A DNA stretch of 64,000 bases from an uncultured Clostridia bacterium (GTDB lineage: Bacteria; Bacillota; Clostridia; Christensenellales; UBA3700). The DNA is taken from contig CAMXSN010000002.1 in NCBI GenBank assembly GCA_947246685.1, positions 209,485 to 273,484 on the forward strand, written 5' to 3'. The notes under the pieces are model-generated. The model saw only the letters and a list, made by a program, of their open reading frames with translations. It made no database searches and was not told where the DNA came from. This document shows positions 38,149-44,193 of the stretch, one piece after another (position 1 is the stretch's first letter; each line of letters starts with the position of its first letter). A program made the position numbers and the translations under genes.

Positions 38149-38222
38149 GCGGGTGTAGTTCAACGGTAGAATCCCAGCCTTCCAAGCTGGTCGCGTGGGT
38201 TCGATTCCCATCACCCGCTCCA
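38149..38222 (+). tRNA. tRNA-Gly (TCC)
   Basis: Cloverleaf, loop CTTCCAA, encoded CCA. Confidence 0.95.
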
Positions 38223-38227
38223 CTTGT

Positions 38228-38304
<77 letters not shown>

Positions 38305-38309
38305 CAGGT

Positions 38310-38387
38310 GGTGGGTATAGCTCAGTAGGCTAGAGCGCAAGATTGTGGCTCTTGAGGCCAAGGGTTCGAATCCCTTTACTCACCCCA
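38310..38387 (+). tRNA. tRNA-His (GTG)
   Basis: Loop TTGTGGC, extra 5' G opposite C73, encoded CCA. Confidence 0.94.
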
Positions 38388-38393
38388 TTTTAT

Positions 38394-38468
38394 AGGGGTA
38401 TCGCCAAGCGGTAAGGCACCAGACTTTGACTCTGGTATTCGTAGGTTCAAATCCTGCTACCCCTGCCA
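38394..38468 (+). tRNA. tRNA-Gln (TTG)
   Basis: Loop CTTTGAC, encoded CCA. Confidence 0.93.
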
Positions 38469-38483
38469 GATTTACAAAAATAT

Positions 38484-38559
38484 TGGGGTGTCGCCAAATG
38501 GTTAAGGCACTGGACTCTGACTCCAGCACTTGAGGGTTCAAATCCTTCCACCCCAGCCA
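38484..38559 (+). tRNA. tRNA-Gln (CTG)
   Basis: Loop CTCTGAC, encoded CCA. Confidence 0.93.
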
Positions 38560-38612
38560 AATACCAAATGCTGTATAATGGGTCGTGATTTTTATAATAT
38601 ATATAAAAATAC

Positions 38613-38641
38613 TTGCATTTTATAGTGTTTTGATATATCAT
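38613..38641 (+). promoter_or_regulatory. second promoter inside the tRNA cluster
   Basis: TTGCAT-17 bp-TATCAT preceded by an AT-rich hairpin. Confidence 0.5.
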
Positions 38642-38652
38642 AACAGAGGTTC

Positions 38653-38728
38653 GACCCATTAGCTCAGTCGGTAGAGCACATGACTTTTAATCATGGTGTC
38701 CCGGGTTCAAATCCCGGATGGGTCACCA
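38653..38728 (+). tRNA. tRNA-Lys (TTT)
   Basis: Loop CTTTTAA, encoded CCA. Confidence 0.95.
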
Positions 38729-38741
38729 ATATTCATTTTAT

Positions 38742-38825
38742 GCGGATGTGGCGGAATTGGCAGACGCGCTAGACTTAGGATCTAGTGTCAACGACATGGG
38801 AGTTCGAGTCTCTTCATCCGCACCA
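38742..38825 (+). tRNA. tRNA-Leu (TAG)
   Basis: Long variable arm, loop CTTAGGA, encoded CCA. Confidence 0.94.
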
Positions 38826-38839
38826 AACGTATTATTTAT

Positions 38840-38914
<75 letters not shown>

Positions 38915-38933
38915 ATATATCCTAATAGGATAT

Positions 38934-39009
38934 GCGCCTTTAGCTCAGTTGGTAGAGCAAATGACTCTTAATCATTGGGTCCAGAGTTCGAGTCTCTGAA
39001 GGCGCACCA
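38934..39009 (+). tRNA. tRNA-Lys (CTT)
   Basis: Loop CTCTTAA, encoded CCA. Confidence 0.95.
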
Positions 39010-39161: not shown

Positions 39162-40637
39162 ATGATAAAACCTGTTAATTTATTTGCGTTATCTTCCATA
39201 AATGACGTACATATTATTAAAGATAGTATAAAGTATCTATCTTCGACGGCGAAGGACAACGAAATAGAAATAATTAATCATTTATGTAATAATCTAAGAG
39301 CAATGAATTGCAATGTCAATCTTCTCAATGATATGTATATAGGTTTTAACATACCTCAGATTTCTAAGGAATTTGATTTGTTGCGTATTGGTGACAGCAT
39401 AATTAATATTGAATTAAAGTCTCAGTTTGTAAATAAAGTTGAAAGGCAACTTAAAAGAAATTTGTATTATCTACGTTTTTTGGGCAAGCCTATAAAACTA
39501 TTTACATATTGCGCAAAAGAAAACAAATTGTGGAGTTTGAGCAGTGGGGATGAACTTGTCGAGAGCAGTTTTAATGATTTAGTCGACGAGCTTTCAAAAC
39601 AACAGAACATTTTCAACGAGGATATTGAAAAGTTATTCAATCCCTCCGATTATCTTATTTCGCCATTTAATTCGACACATAAATTCTTGAAAGGCGAATA
39701 TTTCCTGACTTCCCATCAAGAAGAAATATCATATCAAATTTTTGATGTTTTAGAAAAGGCTGAAGGTTGCGTTATTTCCATAGAAGGCAAGGCGGGAACG
39801 GGCAAAACTTTGTTGTTGTATAATATTGCTAATTGCTTGCGGCAAAAATCTAAAAAAATTATGATGTATCATGTCGGTTTGCTTAACGACGGGCACATAG
39901 AATTAAATAATAACGGTTGGGATATAAAGCCTATAAAATCATTGAGCGAAAATGAATTGATTCGCCAATCTCCAGATGTTATATTGGTTGACGAAGCTCA
40001 AAGATTAGATATAAACCAATTCCAATCATTTTATAAATTTACCAAAAAATACAATATTCATTGCATTTTTTGTCATGATGAAAATCAGACTTTACGAGAC
40101 TACGAAAGCAATAATAAAATTTCAAATAGAATTAAGAACATTGCTGCTTATAAGTTTAATCTCACGGAAAAAATTCGTACCAATAAAGATTTATCTGAAT
40201 TCATAAATTTGGTATTCGGACGAAAAGACCATAAAATAACAAGGTGCAATAAAGCAAGATTGACTTATTTTGACAGTATTGCCGAAGCCGCCCAATATAT
40301 AAATTATAAAACAGACAATGGCTATGATTATATTAGTCACACTCCTGCAATACCCAAGTTCAGGATGCCGAGCAAATACGACAGGCTTTTGCATATAAAC
40401 GAGAGCGGGACGGCTCATTCGGTTATTGGACAAGAATTTGATAATGTCATAGCGGTAATTGACGATACGTTCTTTTATGACGAACACGGAGATTTGTTAA
40501 GCCATGGTTTGCCAAACAACGTTTATTCGCGTAATAAGATGTTTTTTCAGGCGGTTACGAGAGTAAGGAATCGTTTGGAAATTGTAGTAATTGACAACAT
40601 TGAAGTTTATAAACGAATATTGGACAATTTACTTTGA
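39162..40637 (+). CDS. DUF2075-like SF1 helicase/ATPase with N-terminal PD-(D/E)xK-like nuclease domain
   Basis: Walker A EGKAGTGKT, Walker B VDEAQRL, DENQTL, LTEKIRTN, AVTRVRN; N-terminal EFDLLRIGDSIINIELKSQ. Confidence 0.72.
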   Translation: MIKPVNLFALSSINDVHIIKDSIKYLSSTAKDNEIEIINHLCNNLRAMNCNVNLLNDMYIGFNIPQISKEFDLLRIGDSIINIELKSQFVNKVERQLKRNLYYLRFLGKPIKLFTYCAKENKLWSLSSGDELVESSFNDLVDELSKQQNIFNEDIEKLFNPSDYLISPFNSTHKFLKGEYFLTSHQEEISYQIFDVLEKAEGCVISIEGKAGTGKTLLLYNIANCLRQKSKKIMMYHVGLLNDGHIELNNNGWDIKPIKSLSENELIRQSPDVILVDEAQRLDINQFQSFYKFTKKYNIHCIFCHDENQTLRDYESNNKISNRIKNIAAYKFNLTEKIRTNKDLSEFINLVFGRKDHKITRCNKARLTYFDSIAEAAQYINYKTDNGYDYISHTPAIPKFRMPSKYDRLLHINESGTAHSVIGQEFDNVIAVIDDTFFYDEHGDLLSHGLPNNVYSRNKMFFQAVTRVRNRLEIVVIDNIEVYKRILDNLL

Positions 40638-40687: not shown

Positions 40688-41581
40688 TCAGAACGTAATG
40701 TTATTGCCGTCAGTGTTTTTGCATTGCGAATCGGTTTCTTCAAAGACTTTATTGTAATATTCTTCGACTTCGGTCTTTTTGGCATTTAAGCGCAACCACG
40801 GTACGTTGTGCAACTCTACGTCGGCATTCATAACGAAAGCGTCGTATTGTTCGTTTACTATTTTTTTATGAAGTTTTTTGTTTTTGCTCACAAAAACCAG
40901 CATCAGGCAAAATATTACAACAGAGATTGCCAGCGATATTGTTGCGACGTACCAAAAATCCGTAATTGCAAATGTTATTACCCCTGTTATAAAAAATATG
41001 CAGTCGATAAGAGAGTATTGGTAGATTCTGTTAATCAGGTTGCGGTAATAGTCTTTGCCGAAATCTGCTGCTGCGCGGCATATGTCTTTATTTCCTTTGA
41101 AAGCGTCGAGTAAATATTTAGTTCTACGCAAAGAAGAACAGCTCAAAGTATACGTTGCGTTGTCAAGTATTATTTTTACTTTTCCGTAATATGTGCAATA
41201 ATGACTTGCTCCGGTACTTAGGACGGGCGTAGTCCAAGTATAGCCTTGCAATTCGTCGGCGCTTACGGAGAGATAAAAGTCCTTGTCTGCTTTCAGCAGT
41301 AACTTGCCGTCACAGAAAATCAGCGAAGGCTGAGACTTATATATAGCATTGAGTATTATCGCGGTGATTATAGGAGCCGATAAAAGTACTATTCCGGCGA
41401 TAAGCAATCCTAAGTTGAAAGTTTTTGTTATAGCAGTCAAAATACTTAAAATTATAATTACTAAACCTAACATTGATATATAAATAAATGCCGGATATAG
41501 TAAAGCGGCAGAATTCGTGACGTTAACGGCGTCCGATTTGTCTCTGTAGATAGCAATGTGTTTTTTAATTACTTTTTCCAT
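40688..41581 (-). CDS. hypothetical membrane protein
   Basis: 297 aa with two pairs of TM segments. Confidence 0.65.
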   Translation of the reverse strand: MEKVIKKHIAIYRDKSDAVNVTNSAALLYPAFIYISMLGLVIIILSILTAITKTFNLGLLIAGIVLLSAPIITAIILNAIYKSQPSLIFCDGKLLLKADKDFYLSVSADELQGYTWTTPVLSTGASHYCTYYGKVKIILDNATYTLSCSSLRRTKYLLDAFKGNKDICRAAADFGKDYYRNLINRIYQYSLIDCIFFITGVITFAITDFWYVATISLAISVVIFCLMLVFVSKNKKLHKKIVNEQYDAFVMNADVELHNVPWLRLNAKKTEVEEYYNKVFEETDSQCKNTDGNNITF

Positions 41582-41809
41582 AAATTCCTTTTGCGCTGTA
41601 AATTTTGGGCGCGGTTGTTTATTACGATATCAGTATACCAAAGGTTTATATGATTTTCAATGGCATAATTTTTGTTATTATACAGTTTTTATGCAGGTTA
41701 TACATAATTATTCTGCTAAATGAGTGTGAAAATGTGGAAAAACAAATGGAAATCGAGTCAAAAAATGCTCGCTAGAAGTAGAAAAATTAAAAATAATTAG
41801 ATCAAATGC

Positions 41810-41841
41810 TTGACATATATATATATATATATACTTATAAT
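41810..41841 (+). promoter_or_regulatory. promoter with (TA)9 spacer
   Basis: TTGACA-(TA)9-CT-TATAAT, 20-bp spacer. Confidence 0.65.
41816..41833. repeat. (TA)9 dinucleotide repeat
   Basis: Direct reading; also visible as the YIYIYI run in the minus-strand ORFs of the track. Confidence 0.95.
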
Positions 41842-41896
41842 ACTTTGGGAAGGTAAAATTATTTTCCCAAAAATAAAATAGGAGGAAATTATAGAA

Positions 41897-42241
41897 GTGA
41901 ATGATAGACAAAAGACAGTATGCGCAATCGGAGCGTTTGGACTTTTTTTCAGATTTTTATTGGTAGTTTTGGTTGCTATTCTCAGCGGTGGTATATTATT
42001 TCCTTGGATGGAAGTTTGGCTTGTTAAGTACATATGCGACAAAACAACCGTCGACGGATGCAAAATAAATTACACTGCCACAGGCACAGAATTATTTGTG
42101 GAACTTTTAGTAATAATATTACTTTCGATCGTCACTCTAGGGATATTTGTATTCTGGGTGCCGTCGAGAATATTGAAGTTTCATATTTCGCGCGTTCATA
42201 TTGAGAAAGATATGAGCAACTATAAAAATATTGCGGAATAA
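41897..42241 (+). CDS. small membrane protein (YjgN/DUF898-like architecture)
   Basis: 114 aa, two TM helices, IVTLGIFVFWVPSRILKF; GTG start after GGAGG. Confidence 0.65.
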   Translation: MNDRQKTVCAIGAFGLFFRFLLVVLVAILSGGILFPWMEVWLVKYICDKTTVDGCKINYTATGTELFVELLVIILLSIVTLGIFVFWVPSRILKFHISRVHIEKDMSNYKNIAE

Positions 42242-42343
42242 TCGGTCGATTAACTCTGACATTTATATTTGCGTTGTACTCGCAACGTTGTTCCTCTAAA
42301 TGTCCGACGTTGAGGAATTGCGATGGATTATGCAAATTAAATA

Positions 42344-42369
42344 AAAAAGCGGCGAAAACGCCGCTTTTT
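42344..42369. terminator. bidirectional terminator
   Basis: AAAAAGCGGCG-AAAA-CGCCGCTTTTT. Confidence 0.88.
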
Positions 42370-44193
42370 CTATAAGCTCTTTTTTACTCGCGCTTCGTGT
42401 TTTAATCTCAATTCTTTAGAGAGTATCGTCTTACGCAGTCTTATGCTTTTGGGAGTGACCTCGACAAGCTCGTCGTCGGCGATGAATTCCAGACACTGTT
42501 CGAGCGACATTATCGTCGGAGTGACAAGTTTGAGCGCTTCCTCGCTACCGCTGGCGCGGTTGTTGGTCAACTGCTTTTTCTTGCACACGTTGACGACCAT
42601 ATCGTCTTCGCGCGAGTTGACTCCAACTATCATTCCTTCATAGACATTGACGCCTGCGCCGATAAACAGATTGCCGCGTTCCTGCGCGTTGAACAGACCG
42701 TAAGACGTAGTTGCGCCGTCTTCCCAAGCAACGAGGGAGCCTCTGTTGCGCTCTTGAATTTCTCCTTTATAAGGTTCGTATCCTTTGAGCACGTGGTGCA
42801 TTACTCCAAATCCTCTCGTGTCGGTGAGCATTTCGCTGCGGTATCCTATTAAACAACGCGAGGGGATCTCAAATTCCAGCTTGGTGCCGCCTCTGCCGTC
42901 GGGGAACATATTTTTAAGATCGCCTTTTCTTGCGCCTATTTTGTTCATTACGGCGCCGACGTATTCTTCAGGCACGTCGACGATCAATTCTTCGATAGGT
43001 TCACATTTTACTCCGTCGATGACCTTGTATATTACTTTGGGACGCGACACTTGGAATTCGTAGCCTTCTCTGCGCATGGTTTCGATAAGTATAGACAAAT
43101 GCAACTCGCCTCTGCCATAGACCTTAAAGCTGTCGGCAGAATCCGTCTCTTCAACGCGCATAGACACGTTGGTTTCCACTTCCTTAAATAAACGCGCTCT
43201 CAAATGTCTTGATGTTACGAATTTTCCTTCTTTGCCAGCAAAGGGGGAATTGTTGACCATAAAGACCATTGAGAGGGTAGGTTCGTCGATTTTGACAAAC
43301 GGCAAAGCCTCGATTTTATCCAAGTCGCATATCGTTTCTCCGATATTGAGGTTATCTACGCCGCTTATCGCGACGATATCGCCTACGCTGCCGCTTTCGC
43401 ACTCGACTCTTTTCAGCCCTTCGAATTGATACAGCTTGGATATCTTTGCCTGATGGCGGGTGCCGTCCGTATGGCATATTATAGCTTGCTGACCGCTCTT
43501 GATAGTTCCTCTTGCAATCCTTCCTATGCCTATTCTGCCCACGTATTCGTCATAGTCTATATTGCATAATATGGTCTGTAATCCGTCGTCCGCATCGCCT
43601 TCGGGACAGGGAATCTCCCGAATTATGGTATCGAGAAGGGGAGTCATGTCTTTGCCTATTTCTCCCACCTTAAGACTTGCCCATCCTTGCTTGGCGCTAG
43701 CCATTACCGTGACAAAGTCAAGTTGGTCGTCGTTGGCGCCCAATTCTATGAACAAATCTATCAATTGGTCGATTACCTGATTGGGATCTCCGCCCCTGTC
43801 GACTTTGTTGATTACCACTACGGCTTTTTTGTTGAGGCCGAGAGCCTTTTTGAGCACGTATCTTGTCTGCGGCATGCAACCTTCGACCGCGTCTACGAGC
43901 AGCAGCACTCCGTCGACCATTGAGAGAATACGCTCGACTTCGCCGCCGAAATCTGCGTGTCCCGGGGTGTCGATAATATTGATCTTGACGCCGTTGTAGT
44001 GCACGGCGGTGTTTTTGGCCAGAATGGTTATTCCGCGTTCTCTCTCGATATCGTTGTTGTCCATTACTCTGTCGACAACGGCTTCGTTGGAGCGAAATAT
44101 GCCGTTTTGCCGCAAGAGTTGGTCGACCATTGTCGTCTTGCCGTGATCGACGTGGGCGATAATTGCAATGTTTCTTAAATCAGTTCTTTTCAT
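42370..44193 (-). CDS. typA: translational GTPase TypA/BipA
   Basis: NIAIIAHVDHGKTTMVDQLL, DTPGHADFGGEVER, 607 aa. Confidence 0.96.
   Translation of the reverse strand: MKRTDLRNIAIIAHVDHGKTTMVDQLLRQNGIFRSNEAVVDRVMDNNDIERERGITILAKNTAVHYNGVKINIIDTPGHADFGGEVERILSMVDGVLLLVDAVEGCMPQTRYVLKKALGLNKKAVVVINKVDRGGDPNQVIDQLIDLFIELGANDDQLDFVTVMASAKQGWASLKVGEIGKDMTPLLDTIIREIPCPEGDADDGLQTILCNIDYDEYVGRIGIGRIARGTIKSGQQAIICHTDGTRHQAKISKLYQFEGLKRVECESGSVGDIVAISGVDNLNIGETICDLDKIEALPFVKIDEPTLSMVFMVNNSPFAGKEGKFVTSRHLRARLFKEVETNVSMRVEETDSADSFKVYGRGELHLSILIETMRREGYEFQVSRPKVIYKVIDGVKCEPIEELIVDVPEEYVGAVMNKIGARKGDLKNMFPDGRGGTKLEFEIPSRCLIGYRSEMLTDTRGFGVMHHVLKGYEPYKGEIQERNRGSLVAWEDGATTSYGLFNAQERGNLFIGAGVNVYEGMIVGVNSREDDMVVNVCKKKQLTNNRASGSEEALKLVTPTIMSLEQCLEFIADDELVEVTPKSIRLRKTILSKELRLKHEARVKKSL

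Follow-up and report, generated by a model that had tools for sequence, protein, structure and literature searches.

We have found that a σA promoter ahead of a gene for a small membrane protein has an uninterrupted (TA)9 tract as the spacer between its −35 and −10 elements, and we consider a promoter tuned by slippage of this tract to be the best explanation of the site, with a probability of roughly 60%. In the mechanism that we favour the tract would be hypermutable, and slipped-strand mispairing would alter the spacer in 2-bp steps and with it the transcription of the DUF898-like membrane protein unit downstream. That the (TA)9 tract slips, that expression changes as a result and that the organism gains from this are inferences from the sequence, and adaptive phase variation of the membrane protein gene itself is less certain. 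The promoter lies in a 64-kb stretch of DNA, here called the window, from a genome of 1.75 Mb.

Anatomy of the promoter and its surroundings

The features of the site are as follows.

41810–41815 (+): −35 hexamer TTGACA, 6/6 matches, from the sequence
41816–41833 (+): (TA)9 tract, occupying the spacer, from the sequence
41830–41835 (+): alternative −10 hexamer TATACT, 5/6 matches, spacer 14 bp at n = 9, from the sequence and the register table
41836–41841 (+): −10 hexamer TATAAT, 6/6 matches, spacer 20 bp at n = 9, from the sequence and the register table
41844–41871 (+): inverted repeat TTTGGGAA-N12-TTCCCAAA where the transcript is expected to start, from folding and genome uniqueness
41880–41885 (+): ribosome-binding site AGGAGG, from the sequence
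41897–42241 (+): gene for a 114-aa two-TM membrane protein, DUF898-like (YjgN family), with a GTG start, from Pfam PF05987 and hydrophobicity
42343–42370 (no strand assigned): hairpin terminator between the DUF898-like gene and the convergent typA/bipA
41632–41660 (−): promoter of the divergent 297-aa gene, TTGAAA-N17-TATACT
40688–41581 (−): divergent gene for a 297-aa membrane protein

On re-reading, the arrangement TTGACA-(TA)9-CT-TATAAT with its 20-bp spacer, as given in the original prediction, proved exact in sequence and coordinates: the TA tract fills the spacer as it does in the hif promoters of Haemophilus influenzae, and only the dinucleotide CT separates it from TATAAT. The promoter parts listed in that prediction were right, but a second −10 element had been overlooked. 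This element, TATACT, overlaps the 3′ end of the tract and lies 6 bp from TATAAT.

The product encoded from 41897 has two hydrophobic segments, in agreement with the two-TM protein that had been proposed there. It scores 42.5 bits against Pfam PF05987, for which the gathering cut-off is 28, and since its residues 57–105 cover just positions 4–52 of the 336 in that model, it is a partial-length DUF898 relative. Unlike an exposed fimbria or adhesin, it is a small protein of the inner-membrane type. The gene forms a single-gene unit, convergent to typA/bipA and divergent from the 297-aa gene, whose product gave no significant match in Pfam, NCBIfam or PADLOC. The divergent gene has its own promoter (41660–41632), 150 bp from the (TA)9 promoter, and the latter is therefore not a shared divergent promoter of the hif kind. 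Elsewhere in the window, a nine-tRNA array (38149–39009) lies directly 5′ of the gene for a 491-aa SF1-type helicase (39162–40637, + strand) that matches the PADLOC anti-phage defence models AbiO (493.6 bits) and Nhi (484.7 bits).

The 8-bp hairpin that had been described at the transcript start is real though modest. Its arms, at 41844–41851 and 41864–41871, form as RNA a 5′ hairpin with a 10-bp stem (−11 kcal/mol, z = −2.4), and this stability, together with its position at the transcript start, would suit a reading in which the inverted repeat is the actual control element, either as a repressor operator or as an mRNA-stabilising 5′ hairpin, with the TA tract as a bystander. The pair is unique, however, in that the genome contains no second TTGGGAA-N4–26-TTCCCAA, and with no further copy there is no regulon and a shared operator is unlikely; a role as the operator of a regulon was rejected on this ground. 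The extended stem also needs G-U pairs, which points to a hairpin in RNA rather than an operator in DNA. Control by the inverted repeat would leave the unique TA tract unexplained, and we regard it as improbable.

A 20-bp spacer between perfect −35 and −10 elements is the classic geometry of a MerR promoter, in which an activator bound within a spacer of 19–20 bp twists the DNA and so aligns the two elements. The promoter described here fits that geometry, and (TA)9 is self-complementary. The spacer nevertheless consists of (TA)9CT only, which offers no sequence-specific dyad that could serve as an operator, and no regulator gene adjoins the site, so that activation of the MerR type seems to us highly improbable.

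The tract within its genome

The organism uses ordinary σA promoters with a strong preference for a 17-bp spacer: of the 73 exact TTGACA..TATAAT pairs that its 1.75-Mb genome contains (the reversed pattern yields 4), 49 are spaced at N17, 8 at N18 and 3 at N16. The (TA)9 site is alone among the 73 in having an N20 spacer. Within the window, exact TTGACA-N14–22-TATAAT occurs three times, against 0.18 expected from shuffles. TATACT is likewise in use as a −10 element in this genome, since 8 of 14 TTGACA..TATACT sites have a spacer of 17 bp.

A pattern search of the genome found no TA tract of at least 7 units other than (TA)9, and just one more of at least 6 units, a (TA)6; both lie within promoters. 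By a first-order Markov estimate, the chance that a TA tract would be flanked by TTGACA and, at most 12 bp away, by TATAAT is about 3e-6, and the placement of (TA)9 between the −35 and −10 elements is not due to chance. The (TA)6 tract (G000:C1:170872-170883; L021/L148), the second-longest of the genome, runs into the −10 element of a TTGACT-N17-TATAAT promoter, and the gene behind it, named by eye from its sequence, is putatively secD. We note that the (TA)9 tract is the sole tandem array with a 1–5-bp unit in the window, which has no A/T homopolymer of 9 or more and no G/C homopolymer of 7 or more.

Registers of the promoter and predicted switching

For n TA units, the register table places TATAAT at 2n+2 bp and TATACT at 2n−4 bp from the −35 element, that is, at 20 and 14 bp when n = 9. 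In the n = 9 allele no −10-like hexamer with at least five of six matches lies 15–19 bp from the −35 element, and an alternative −10 at such a distance was rejected for this reason. We predict that n = 9 is a weak state lying between two active registers. Both −10 elements would be poorly spaced in this allele, and a working promoter would be regained either by the loss of one or two units, which puts TATAAT at 18 bp (n = 8) or 16 bp (n = 7), or by the gain of one or two, which puts TATACT at 16 bp (n = 10) or 18 bp (n = 11). Gain and loss alike thus bring the spacer into the range of the genome's own promoters (N16–N18), as in promoters of the hif type.

The original prediction had slippage moving the spacer toward the 17-bp optimum through the loss of units. 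The spacers of 18 and 16 bp that it gave for such losses are right, but because the spacer is even, slippage of TA units reaches 18 or 16 bp and never exactly 17. Activation through loss likewise agrees with the register table, while the converse had been missed: given the second −10 element, gains of repeats to n = 10 or 11 should activate the promoter just as losses should.

The same design elsewhere in the class

Of the 388 class genomes searched, 14 contain a promoter of the form TTGACA-(TA)≥5-TATAAT, and none contains the reversed control. One family has the design in 11 of 131 genomes (reversed control again 0), with at most 7 cases per genome and 33 rows in total, a figure that includes a few duplicates in which one tract was matched twice; it is also found in 4 of the 5 genomes of one further genus. 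In this family and this genus taken together, a protein with a signal peptide is encoded downstream of 20 of 23 non-redundant TA-spacer promoters as against 2 of 29 N17 controls from the same genomes (Fisher p = 2.7e-9), with signal peptides called by a simple ORF and hydrophobicity rule on the fetched loci rather than by a trained predictor. Of the 25 TA tracts of at least 7 units listed for six of these genomes, 15 belong to promoters with an exact TTGACA and TATAAT, and roughly 6 others, situated before signal-peptide genes, have −35 elements resembling TTGACT, TTGACG or TTGTCG, or have TTGACA without an exact TATAAT. The proteins behind TA-spacer promoters that were scanned contain SLH, Cna_B, SHIRT and GA domains. 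Surface-protein promoters of this design, several per genome, include L041, L045, L038, L047, L043, L048, L051, L053 and L136–L138.

The number of TA units differs between orthologous promoters of sister species. L041 and L045 are 4 units apart, with 120 bp of identical sequence before the tract and more than 40 bp after it; L051 and L053 are also 4 units apart, and their downstream 60 bp are identical. The pairs L038/L047, L043/L048 and L137/L138 differ by 1 unit each. From these comparisons it follows that the tracts evolve in length faster than their flanks. Differences between species do not demonstrate switching within a culture. A TA tract of another kind, (TA)14, is present at L140 1495–1522 (G437:C4, about 51495) inside an open frame of 542 codons, which by eye we take to encode a restriction-modification specificity protein. 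The 28 bp of this tract are not divisible by 3, so that slippage there would shift the frame, and the gene is a candidate phase-variable restriction specificity gene.

At the (TA)9 locus itself, the nearest homologues of the 114-aa protein in the genus, at 55% identity, lack the promoter, and conservation of the (TA)9 promoter across the genus was therefore rejected; the gene for the homologue in genome G012 lies directly behind glyA. Among the genomes searched from the same genus and family, TTGACA-(TA)≥5-TATAAT was found in the window's own genome only, and in the order it is present in 8 of 396 genomes. This lack of conservation in genus, family or order would be expected if the tract were a neutral microsatellite, in which an AT-tolerant spacer gained TA units by chance and its length drifts unselected with a slight effect on expression, the 20-bp spacer making a weak constitutive promoter. 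Points that count against a slippage switch favour drift as well: the (TA)9 promoter is the single case in its genome, its product is neither an exposed antigen nor, unlike the products in most of the class-wide cases, a surface protein with a signal peptide, and its even spacer skips 17 bp, whereas 36 of the 48 TA-spacer promoters found have odd spacers. Drift sits less well with the location of both genomic tracts of at least 6 units in promoters, with the class-wide link to exported proteins and with the occurrence of the design at multiple loci, and we consider it unlikely, though deserving of real weight. Four points support the slippage-controlled promoter of the original prediction, which we prefer: the geometry of the promoter, a tract that has no equal in the genome, the prevalence of 17–18-bp spacers there, and further cases of the design in the class, whose repeat numbers differ between orthologues.

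Switching by a TA spacer is textbook knowledge for one Haemophilus operon. The genomes surveyed here suggest that a large class of anaerobes may use it repeatedly. We found no paper on TA-spacer promoters in this class among the open-licence literature; the phase variation that a review names for the class, in Clostridioides difficile, proceeds by DNA inversion (PMC11868660). We tentatively propose, as a possibility that we rate as less likely than not, that TA-repeat σA spacers are widespread and apparently undescribed phase-variation switches in anaerobic Gram-positives, often several per genome and mainly controlling surface or exported proteins, and that the (TA)9 locus is a variant with two registers, whose tandem −10 elements allow either gain or loss to switch the promoter on. 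If this is true, counting repeats in reads would list the switchable surface proteins of gut and mucosal bacteria in which genetic manipulation is difficult. The class-wide pattern is a more interesting result than the single (TA)9 locus.

Comparison with known systems

The closest precedent of the (TA)9 promoter is that of hifA/hifB in H. influenzae, where, according to three papers, a TA number of 9, 10 or 11 sets the spacing between −35 and −10 and the expression of fimbriae (PMC13192263; PMC7911514; PMC11709252); the TA-repeat promoter is attributed to van Ham 1993 in PMC7911514. As at hifA/hifB, a perfect TA tract in the range of 9–11 units lies between the −35 and −10 elements, the spacer changes in 2-bp steps with repeat number, and the product is located at the cell envelope. 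The hif promoters, however, overlap and jointly control two divergent genes, whereas the (TA)9 site serves one gene and has two tandem −10 elements. The analogy with hifA/hifB that had been drawn earlier thus holds for the tract and the spacer geometry but not for a shared divergent promoter or an exposed fimbrial product.

A second comparison is with spxA1-tenA of Streptococcus pneumoniae, at which an AT tract, most commonly (AT)9 or 18 bp, shows lengths of 10–38 bp across 33,625 isolates (PMC11709252). TTTRC and CRTTT flank that tract, which is described as lying upstream of the promoter and has effects of about 1.5-fold (PMC11709252). Both systems have a nine-unit tract in a Gram-positive promoter region, and at spxA1-tenA the length of the tract changes transcription; at the site described here the tract is not upstream of the promoter but forms the −35/−10 spacer itself.

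Compared with the surface-protein promoters of the class (L041/L045, L038/L047, L043/L048 and L051/L053), the (TA)9 site stands apart in that those promoters occur several per genome, drive secreted products (with SLH, Cna_B and GA domains where scanned) and mostly have odd spacers from which 17 bp can be reached. It nevertheless shares with them the same order of TTGACA, TA tract and TATAAT. Their tracts are of 7–12 units, with TA numbers that vary between orthologues, and L041/L045 have overlapping −10 elements as well.
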